A DNA stretch of 64,000 bases, taken from the NCBI GenBank assembly GCA_001464695.1, contig LNDQ01000112.1, positions 166,835 through 230,834 on the forward strand, read 5' to 3'. Below are positions 1-2,471 of the stretch, piece after piece (the first letter of the stretch is position 1; every line of letters starts with the position of its first letter). The notes under the pieces are model-generated. The model ran no database searches and was not told where the DNA came from. It was given only the letters and a program-made list of their open reading frames with translations. The translations under genes and the position numbers were made by a program. This DNA comes from Betaproteobacteria bacterium Ga0077523 (GTDB lineage: Bacteria > Pseudomonadota > Gammaproteobacteria > Burkholderiales > Ga0077523).

Positions 1-522
1 TTCGGGAAACCGCAGTGGGGGCAGTTCGTGGGACCACTCGCGGTAGTAGCGCTGGTCGTAGGCGTCGGTCGTCTCGCTTTCCCATCCGGCGAAGATCAAT
101 GCGTCTTCAACCTTCTGCAAATGGGCTCTCGGCACCATCAGATCGACGTCTTCGAAGATGCGACCGTGGCCGGTGCGCGACCCGAGCGCCGCGTAGGCCG
201 CTCCCTTCAAGAGGACGATGGGCCCGTCGTAGTCGCCCAGCGCCTCCGCCACGGCACGCAGTTCCACACCTGCCATCGCTGCGCGCTGTAAGGACACGCG
301 ATAGTCGCTTTCGAGCATTTGCGCGGCCGCTTGCGGAATCCTCGCGAGCATTCCGGCAGCGCTCAGGCGCGCATGGAGCGCACCCAGCAGTTTGGCGCTG
401 CGCCCCGCCCGGACGGCGAGGTCCCAGTCGGCCGGCGACCAGCCCAACGCTTCGTCCGGCTGGGTGAGCAGCGACAGCAACAGTCGGGCGTGCCGTGCAG
501 GCGGCGGGTTCGAAGCGGCCAT
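1..522 (-). CDS. nucleotidyltransferase family protein (HPr-rel-A system associated), 3'-truncated by window edge
   Basis: Reverse frame open from CAT at 520-522 to position 1: MAASNPPPARHARLLLSLLTQPDEALGWSPADWDLAVRAG...VLLKGAAYAALGSRTGHGRIFEDVDLMVPR; the KG-A...G-R..FEDVDL pattern is typical of NTase family proteins. Confidence 0.75.
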   Translation of the reverse strand, partial: MAASNPPPARHARLLLSLLTQPDEALGWSPADWDLAVRAGRSAKLLGALHARLSAAGMLARIPQAAAQMLESDYRVSLQRAAMAGVELRAVAEALGDYDGPIVLLKGAAYAALGSRTGHGRIFEDVDLMVPRAHLQKVEDALIFAGWESETTDAYDQRYYREWSHELPPLRFPE

Positions 523-569
523 GGAAAGTGGGGCAGTCCCGCATCCTACTGCACGGGACCGCGGGTGCG

Positions 570-1496
570 TCAGTGACGTCTTGCTGCCACGGTATCGACC
601 AGCGAGTCGACAGTCTGAATGCCAGAAGCGAGATCGGAGTAGGTGAGCCGATAGCACTCGCACGCTTCGATCACCTTGCAGGCGGCTTCGAAGCCCGCGG
701 CGCCGAGCACTTCGTAGTTGAACGAATTCACGACCAGCTTGGAGAAAGCCTGGGAGCGACCCATTGCCTCGAGAGTGGTCTCGGCGTCCGCTTGGTAGAG
801 CGGAAAGATGACGAGGCCGGGTTCGGCGGGCGCATGCCGTCGTTCGACGCTGGTCAAGTCGGGCGCGAGGTGCGCCACCGTGCCCTTGCGGGTCTTCGGA
901 AAGGACGGGCCCAGTCGCGCCTGAGGGAACCGGGTCCGGATCACGTCGATCGATGCGTTCTTCAAGGCCGCGCCCTTCAGCATCGGCAACAACGCGCCGT
1001 CCTCAAAGCGAACGACCCCGAACTCGTCGGACAACAGCCGATAGCCGCTCAACATCAAGGCGGCCGTCAGCGTGCTCTTGCCGGAGCCAGGCACCGCCGG
1101 CAGGACGATGCCCACACCGCGCTTTTCCACCACGCCCGAGTGCAGCAGCAGGCAGTGGTTGTAGCGTTCGGCGAGAGTCCAGTTCACGCCCCACTCGAGC
1201 AGCGGCAAGTGGGTGTCGGCGGGGAACGGCTCGAACGGACGGTTGCCGTCGACGTCGAACTCGACTTGCGGGTGAATGAACCGCCGCACGCCCGGAACGC
1301 GTCGCACGGACGCGCTGACCTGGCAGAACGCGTCGGCATCGATGAGCGGAAACTCTGCGTACACGGCGCCGAGGGCTGCCGCCAGCCCCTTCGAATCGCT
1401 CCGCACCCGGATCGACGCCGACCCGATGTCGAGCACGATGCCGCTGGCATCCAGGCGCCGGGCCAGCGCAGCAGCGGACAACTCACCGATACGCAT
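570..1496 (-). CDS. HprK-related kinase A
   Basis: 308 aa ORF with Walker-A-like PAVPGSGKSTLTAALMLSGYRLLSDEFGVV, like HprK-related kinases; neighbours a PqqD-like ORF. Confidence 0.85.
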   Translation of the reverse strand: MRIGELSAAALARRLDASGIVLDIGSASIRVRSDSKGLAAALGAVYAEFPLIDADAFCQVSASVRRVPGVRRFIHPQVEFDVDGNRPFEPFPADTHLPLLEWGVNWTLAERYNHCLLLHSGVVEKRGVGIVLPAVPGSGKSTLTAALMLSGYRLLSDEFGVVRFEDGALLPMLKGAALKNASIDVIRTRFPQARLGPSFPKTRKGTVAHLAPDLTSVERRHAPAEPGLVIFPLYQADAETTLEAMGRSQAFSKLVVNSFNYEVLGAAGFEAACKVIEACECYRLTYSDLASGIQTVDSLVDTVAARRH

Positions 1497-1773
1497 AGTC
1501 CGTCGCTACGGCAACCAGCCGCAAGTCCGTGAGCTGCGCCAGGGCATCGACGACGAACCGTTCGGCGTTGGTGGCATCGAGGTCGCTGGCTTCCAAGGCC
1601 GTGTCGACCAGGTCCTGCAAGGAGCAGGGTCCGGCGCCCAGCGCTTCCAGCACCGTGCCCACGAGCAGGTCGACGACGTGGGTTTCCCAGCGCAGCGGGT
1701 TGAAGACCGCGCAGCCGTCGTCGAAGAAATGAAGACGCGTTCCGGTCGCGTCGGCGAGGACCCAGCGAGGCAC
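1483..1773 (-). CDS. HPr-rel-A system PqqD family peptide chaperone
   Basis: 96 aa; PqqD-like fold pattern (FNPLRWETHVVDLLVGTVLEALGAGPCSLQDLVDTAL...); overlaps the kinase ORF by 14 nt. Confidence 0.75.
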   Translation of the reverse strand: MPRWVLADATGTRLHFFDDGCAVFNPLRWETHVVDLLVGTVLEALGAGPCSLQDLVDTALEASDLDATNAERFVVDALAQLTDLRLVAVATDYAYR

Positions 1774-1822
1774 CGGCTATCGACTCCGGACCGGCGCGTT
1801 ACTCAACGCCGGGACAGCCGTA

Positions 1823-2323
1823 TCACTTCGGCCGCAGCGAGGTCCAGCAGGAGTTGGTGCACTTATTGGAACCCGAATAGGATTCCCAGTGATAAGCGCA
1901 AGGCGTGCCCGAACTGTTGATCTTGACCAGGCAGTGCTTGAAGCTCGGCGTGGACGGCATGTGCTCGATGATGCCGGGGCCGCCCGGTACGTAGGAGCAC
2001 GTCTTCGGCGTGACCGTATCCGGCGAGTATCGATCAAGCTCGTAGTAGCAGCTGCCGTTCATGCTCTTGATGAACTTGCGGCCCCACAGTCGCGTTGACT
2101 TGCCGTTGACGGGCACTGTCAGCTCGCACGGCTGGCACTTCCAGCGCATCCACTCGTCCGGCGTGTCGCACAGGAGCTTGTGGGGTGTGGGTTTCTGCGC
2201 ATCGCGCTCGAGGCAGCGGTTGCTGGCCAGGGCGGTGGCGGAGGACGGACGAACGGTCAGGATGACTGGCGCCGCCAGTCCAGCCTGAATGATCTTGCGC
2301 CGCTTTGCTTGCTGCTTGTCCAT
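1823..2323 (-). CDS. secreted cysteine-rich protein with Tat-like leader, unknown function
   Basis: MDKQQAKRRKIIQAGLAAPVILTVRPSSATALAS leader, then about 130 aa with 10 Cys; first gene of the minus-strand operon with PqqD/HprK-like genes. Confidence 0.7.
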   Translation of the reverse strand: MDKQQAKRRKIIQAGLAAPVILTVRPSSATALASNRCLERDAQKPTPHKLLCDTPDEWMRWKCQPCELTVPVNGKSTRLWGRKFIKSMNGSCYYELDRYSPDTVTPKTCSYVPGGPGIIEHMPSTPSFKHCLVKINSSGTPCAYHWESYSGSNKCTNSCWTSLRPK

Positions 2324-2362
2324 GGGGATCGACCGCAAAACTCTGAGAAGTGCAGCGAATAT

Positions 2363-2378
2363 AGCAAGACGGGTTCCA
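2363..2378 (-). promoter_or_regulatory. putative sigma-54 (-24/-12) promoter of the Cys-rich/PqqD/HprK-like operon
   Basis: Minus-strand TGGAACCCGTCTTGCT; GG-N10-GC spacing exact; about 40 nt upstream of ATG at 2323. Confidence 0.55.
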
Positions 2379-2450
2379 GTCGGAGCGTCTTGTTCAACTC
2401 GCTGAGTTGGCTGATATTTTTGAGACGCTTTGAGAAGTGCTTGGAGGTTC

Positions 2451-2471
2451 GGTGTAAGAAAATTCGACGTC
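2451..2471 (-). promoter_or_regulatory. putative sigma-54 enhancer-type site (shared motif GTCGR-N6-TKACA)
   Basis: Minus-strand GACGTCGAATTTTCTTACACC; matches the motif upstream of three PEP-CTERM genes; 72 bp from the -24 element. Confidence 0.4.

Follow-up and report, generated by a model that had tools for sequence, protein, structure and literature searches.

The HPr-rel-A operon of Betaproteobacteria bacterium Ga0077523, which encodes an HprK-related kinase, a PqqD-like chaperone, a nucleotidyltransferase and a protein with a twin-arginine leader, very probably belongs, as a conserved member, to the PrsK/PrsR-RpoN regulon by which PEP-CTERM proteins are controlled. We base this placement on a computational analysis of 64,000 nucleotides of DNA (contig LNDQ01000112.1, positions 166,835 to 230,834; hereafter the window), in which the operon is preceded by a predicted PrsR site and a -24/-12 (sigma-54) promoter. 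Profile searches of the window and its contig gave a four-gene operon on the minus strand, and its elements are as follows, in the direction of transcription:

2453..2468, minus strand: upstream activating site core GTCGAATTTTCTTACA, within GACGTCGAATTTTCTTACACC (2451-2471); Haft motif 1, predicted PrsR site
2363..2378, minus strand: -24/-12 (sigma-54) promoter TGGAACCCGTCTTGCT, separated by 74 nt from the activating site; +1 predicted near 2352
1823..2323, minus strand: first gene (leader gene), ATG at 2323; 166-amino-acid (aa) twin-arginine-leader protein, predicted to be exported and candidate substrate
1483..1773, minus strand: HPr-rel-A system PqqD family peptide chaperone, TIGR04353 (50.5 bits, cut-off 35)
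570..1496, minus strand: HprK-related kinase A, TIGR04352 (361.8 bits, cut-off 200), with Walker A GSGKST intact
1..522, minus strand: NTP_transf_5 nucleotidyltransferase, PF14907 (168 bits), crossing the left window edge; 375 aa in the contig

A pair of sites shared with PEP-CTERM genes

The original prediction had proposed, from this DNA alone, that the operon uses the same switch as PEP-CTERM genes, and the two elements, read off the sequence, lie exactly where it had placed them. TGGAACCCGTCTTGCT agrees with the sigma-54 consensus at the key GG and GC positions, and its -12 T is about 40 nt ahead of the first-gene ATG. The upstream element had been called a dyad: a repeat does exist there, but only as an imperfect inverted repeat, TGTCG-N6-TKACA.

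To assess the pair more quantitatively, we compared motif counts in the window with expectation. The promoter pattern TGG-N8-TTGCW alone occurred five times against 3.18 expected, which is not above chance, while GTCGR-N6-TKACA alone occurred five times against 0.46 expected. The tandem pair (55-80 nt apart) was found four times against 0.01 expected, once before the HPr-rel-A operon and three times before PEP-CTERM genes. The claim that three such genes share the upstream site was thus real, and each of them also has a paired -24/-12 element:

20465-20480 / 20388-20403, minus strand: site pair, spacer 61, before PEP-CTERM gene 18843-20309
51554-51569 / 51466-51481, minus strand: site pair, spacer 72, before PEP-CTERM gene 50506-51414, weakly PepA-like
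61762-61777 / 61840-61855, plus strand: site pair, spacer 62, before a PEP-CTERM (XDP1 family) gene ending at 62815

A strict search for the pair across the 4.7-Mb assembly returned six matches, namely the window's four and two in or near unrelated open reading frames (ORFs).

Three further observations concern these elements. The fifth GTCGR-N6-TKACA match (16050-16065, minus strand) lies inside ORF 15556-16845 with no -24/-12 partner and is probably a chance match. On the same contig (C112), an upstream-site-like sequence, GTCGACGAACCTGACA, lies in L019 between 9872 and 10287, between the EpsB and YdcF-like genes, and the strict search found no -24/-12 partner for it. ORF 62867-63727 (plus strand) has a PEP-CTERM-like tail and no strict pair, so the element does not precede every such gene here.

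The pair is conserved before orthologous operons

Within the genus, the same pair stands ahead of the operon in eight of the nine kinase-bearing members, at nearly equal distance; TGGAACCCGTCTTGCT is identical in genome G005, and diverged yet alignable in further members. At the inspected genus loci, every credible pair match preceded either a PEP-CTERM gene or the HPr-rel-A operon; the remaining matches had poor -12 elements or lay inside ORFs.

We then extended the comparison to an order-wide sample of 400 genomes, in which the kinase scored over its cut-off in 67, the window's own included; 67 loci were examined, with the window's own locus excluded from the count. The strict pair was present at 32 of them (including one with CGG for TGG), while the same strict pattern, run on the opposite strand as a control, gave none. 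A position weight matrix built from these 32 pairs added 21 loci, so the strict count is an underestimate, and brought the total to 53 of 67 loci in 16 families; it matched none of 402 control stretches, which were reverse-complement, downstream, shuffled or reversed sequence. In a second collection of named genomes, which partly overlaps the first and adds Gammaproteobacteria (Chromatiaceae, Halieaceae, Sedimenticola), the pair preceded 44 of 80 loci and 0 of 240 controls. Across both sets, none of the 642 control stretches carried it. The pattern was defined on sites of which the 21 matrix-only loci and the lineages new to the second set are independent. Positions that the pattern left unconstrained were also conserved: the T before GTCG (28/32), the T of the TTTACA type (28/32), the first T of TTGC (31/32) and the T after TTGC (30/32). 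The resulting consensus is TGTCGR-N5-TTTACA, a spacer of mostly 62-99 nt, and TGG-N8-TTGCT. Lack of conservation of the pair ahead of orthologous operons had been named in the original prediction as grounds for rejecting it; the pair is conserved, and together these results support the inference of regulon membership made there.

The spacer itself is patterned, with lengths clustering at 62-66, 72-78, 81-87 and 92-99 nt. In a set of 89 sites, left after removal of near-identical spacers, the best period was 10.8 bp (R = 0.54) and 0 of 5000 jittered sets scored as high, a nominal significance that kinship among the genomes still inflates. Phasing by about one turn is what looping by an enhancer-binding protein from one face of the DNA would give.

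The switch itself is already known, since this consensus is the element of Haft et al. (2006), who found 99 of 167 proteobacterial PEP-CTERM genes preceded by a 17-nt motif ending in TTTACA, followed after 62.8 ± 10.6 nt (range 32-92) by a -24/-12 motif, and assigned the two to PrsR and RpoN (PMC1569441). The upstream motif is their PEP-CTERM motif 1 and hence not new. The window's site shares with the published element the 17-nt motif, the -24/-12 second motif, an intergenic position, a PrsR-positive genome and a spacer (74) inside the published range; it differs by one mismatch in the hexamer (CTTACA, against TTTACA in most orthologues) and by having an HPr-rel-A operon rather than a PEP-CTERM gene as its target. 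The conserved use of this switch on the HPr-rel-A operon appears to be new. DVUA0057, the predicted PEP-CTERM regulator of Desulfovibrio, enriched its five predicted PEP-CTERM targets in a DNA-affinity-purified-chip (DAP-chip) experiment (PMC3333781), and pepA of Aquincola tertiaricarbonis has an RpoN promoter (TGGCAC / CTGCTT) mapped by its transcription start site (PMC9850573). The latter shares with our operon a predicted enhancer upstream of the RpoN promoter and a setting of exopolysaccharide and flocs, but it drives a PEP-CTERM gene rather than a predicted modification operon.

Sites and operon co-occur with PrsR

All the components of the proposed switch are encoded in the window's genome. 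PrsR lies at C112:159845-161170, a few kilobases beyond the operon, with PrsK and PrsT adjoining; RpoN is on contig C85, and XrtA (exosortase A) is inside the window, the remainder of which is an exosortase A exopolysaccharide cluster. Among genus members, the nine with PrsR had 1-11 pair matches per genome, whereas the three without it had none. These three also lack XrtA and the kinase, and in two of them RpoN was above its cut-off. Across the order, PrsR was present in 63 of 67 kinase genomes versus 36 of 333 others (Fisher 2.5e-42), and XrtA in 64 of the 67; the kinase was no more than 15 kb from PrsR in 22 loci. Every one of the 32 strict sites was in a PrsR-positive genome.

In the mechanism that we propose, phosphorylated PrsR (PrsR-P) would bind GTCGR-N6-TKACA at 2453-2468 and, from a fixed helix face, would activate RpoN polymerase at the -24/-12 element at 2363-2378, such that the four-gene operon would be produced together with PEP-CTERM proteins.

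The first gene as a candidate substrate

The TIGR04353 and TIGR04352 genes are adjacent and both score over cut-off, which identifies an HPr-rel-A system. The system is widespread in Proteobacteria, with at least 587 encoding stretches, and we found no paper on 'HprK-related kinase' or on HprK with exosortase in the open-licence literature. Across 68 loci, PqqD accompanies the kinase in 67 and the nucleotidyltransferase in all 68; the latter had been noted downstream in the original prediction, to which we add that it runs past the window's edge and is a PF14907 protein. Kinase residues H119, K140, D157 and E158 are invariant in the 68 loci, and a PDB sequence search returned weak similarity to HPr kinase.

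The first-gene product matches no assigned Pfam or NCBIfam family. It is not a PEP-CTERM protein by the models searched (no match to TIGR02595 or related families), and it ends NSCWTSLRPK. A gene of this kind leads the operon at 60 of the 67 order-wide loci. Its product starts with residues that vary and continues with RR and a hydrophobic segment in which L-T-L/V-x-S recurs, after which comes cargo; there seem to be at least three unrelated kinds of cargo. All 20 long-type proteins have the RR, as does every short-type one with a complete N-terminus, and at the C-terminus S158, C159 and S162 do not vary among the 18 sequences of the window's type. The site pair was present at 53 of the 60 leader-gene loci, compared with none of the seven loci without a leader gene (Fisher 4e-6). 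At L057, L058 and L062 an HslV-like gene takes the leader gene's place and the pair is absent, which gives a natural contrast inside a single family. A leader that stays constant while the cargo varies fits a recognition leader, and also a plain signal for twin-arginine translocation (Tat).

PqqD-type proteins bind leader peptides, and on this pattern the PqqD-like protein may bind the first-gene leader and present the chain first to the HprK-like kinase and next to the PF14907 nucleotidyltransferase. Acting in the cytoplasm, the two enzymes would modify a residue that is probably a Ser or Thr near the C-terminus, and the modified protein would then be exported by Tat into the matrix. That the first gene is the substrate, modified in this way before export, is a tentative reading, since the leader pattern would suit a plain Tat signal too.

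The analogy comes from lasso-peptide clusters, in which HprK-like kinases place a phosphate on a C-terminal Ser, and PsmN, annotated as a nucleotidyltransferase, adds a hexose to that phosphate (PMC9266682). These tailoring cassettes (PadeK/ThcoK, PsmK with PsmN) and the operon share a PqqD-type protein, an HprK-like kinase and a nucleotidyltransferase placed by the kinase, beside a small substrate gene, with the operon's nucleotidyltransferase belonging to PF14907 and PsmN known as an annotated nucleotidyltransferase. Of the lasso kinases' His-Lys-Asp-Asp set, the first three would correspond to the invariant H119, K140 and D157, and the fourth may be E158 of an SDE motif. The operon differs in that its candidate substrate is a twin-arginine-leader protein of 140-260 aa regulated with exosortase substrates. 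No B2 protease, lasso cyclase or short lasso precursor was found in the four-gene operon (no genome-wide B2 search was made), and most of 147 loci have no AsnB-like gene nearby.

Alternative explanations

Chance matching of the sites, with the operon read through from upstream exopolysaccharide genes, is hardly credible. It would draw on the chance-level count of -24/-12 matches and on 2475-4940, a same-strand gene whose end lies a few bases ahead of the upstream site; yet the pair is conserved across 16 families and absent from all control stretches, its spacer is helically phased, and the upstream genes differ in most lineages, the window's own having a relative in 5 of 147 loci. An RpoN-dependent promoter served by another NtrC-like activator with a similar site, with partial co-regulation with PEP-CTERM genes, is a little less far-fetched but still very improbable. 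NtrC-like proteins are numerous, with dozens of first-look candidates per genome, and two weaker sites (G101, G145) lie in draft genomes without detected PrsR; set against this, the same upstream motif precedes PEP-CTERM genes in the same genomes, the strict sites are confined to PrsR-positive genomes, and the RpoN-bearing genus members that lack PrsR have neither sites nor operon. Those two draft-genome sites also weigh against PrsR/RpoN regulon membership, as do seven leader-gene loci with no recognisable pair (one of them, L027, truncated at a contig end), many Rubrivivax and Chromatiaceae relatives in the second collection that appear to lack it, and the presence upstream of genes in the same direction, from which read-through is possible.

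The co-regulation may also be real and the first gene an independent exported protein, with PqqD, kinase and nucleotidyltransferase acting on PEP-CTERM proteins, exopolysaccharide precursors or an HPr-like signalling protein. We consider this rather unlikely. It would account for the kinase operons of one family that lie beside unrelated genes with no leader gene (L057, L058, L062), and for the operon's location in an XrtA exopolysaccharide locus, but it sits less easily with a leader gene that heads 60 of 67 loci and is tracked by the promoter, with a leader motif that is kept while the cargo varies, and with the leader binding of PqqD-type proteins. The substrate reading has its own difficulties: six of the seven loci without a leader gene come from one family, such that phylogeny partly confounds the test of pair against leader; the structures predicted for two first-gene types (mean pLDDT 67.6 and 72.2) matched nothing in the PDB at E <= 0.001; and the modification is proposed by analogy.

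Neighboring genes

Past the operon, the contig continues with an opposite-strand YdcF-like gene (identified by eye), EpsB, PrsK, PrsR and PrsT. Directly after the nucleotidyltransferase gene lies a G+C-rich 79-bp tandem repeat of 2.3 copies (L019:11048-11227). A transcript running on into EpsB-PrsK-PrsR is unlikely, as this repeat and the opposite-strand gene intervene. The genome encodes two PrsT-like tetratricopeptide repeat proteins (window 58944-61757, plus strand; L019:2027-4801, minus strand), both well above the TIGR02917 cut-off.

An asparagine-synthase-like protein is encoded at 8987-10393 (minus strand), close to two GNAT genes in the exopolysaccharide locus; models match it only from about position 176, and the N-terminal glutaminase domain is lacking. 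In five genus members (L083-L087), larger AsnB relatives lie immediately upstream of the HPr-rel-A operon. We considered the gene at 8987-10393 as a lasso-type cyclase partner and rejected it, as an AsnB relative is near the kinase in just 8 of 147 loci, mainly in this genus.

Implications

From these sequence patterns we infer that PrsR-P and RpoN would turn on the genes for a secreted protein and for the enzymes that modify it in the cytoplasm. The PEP-CTERM regulon would then comprise, besides cargo proteins, a likely pathway of protein modification. As a long shot, by analogy with pseudomycoidin, there may be a second protein-to-matrix route parallel to exosortase, in which a Tat-exported protein induced by RpoN/PrsR receives, while still in the cytoplasm, a phosphate on a C-terminal Ser or Thr and next a nucleotidyl or sugar group, so as to link to or prime exopolysaccharide. 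With a concrete substrate candidate named, the function of the HPr-rel-A system becomes directly testable in laboratory strains; cultured ones that carry the pair are available in Sulfuricella, Thiobacillus denitrificans, Massilia and Noviherbaspirillum, for example. Since the PrsR/RpoN switch is kept before the operon in many Proteobacteria, the operon is predicted to be linked to the building of the outer matrix, and its placement in the regulon tells when the HPr-rel-A system is made and points to the extracellular matrix of flocs, granules and biofilms.
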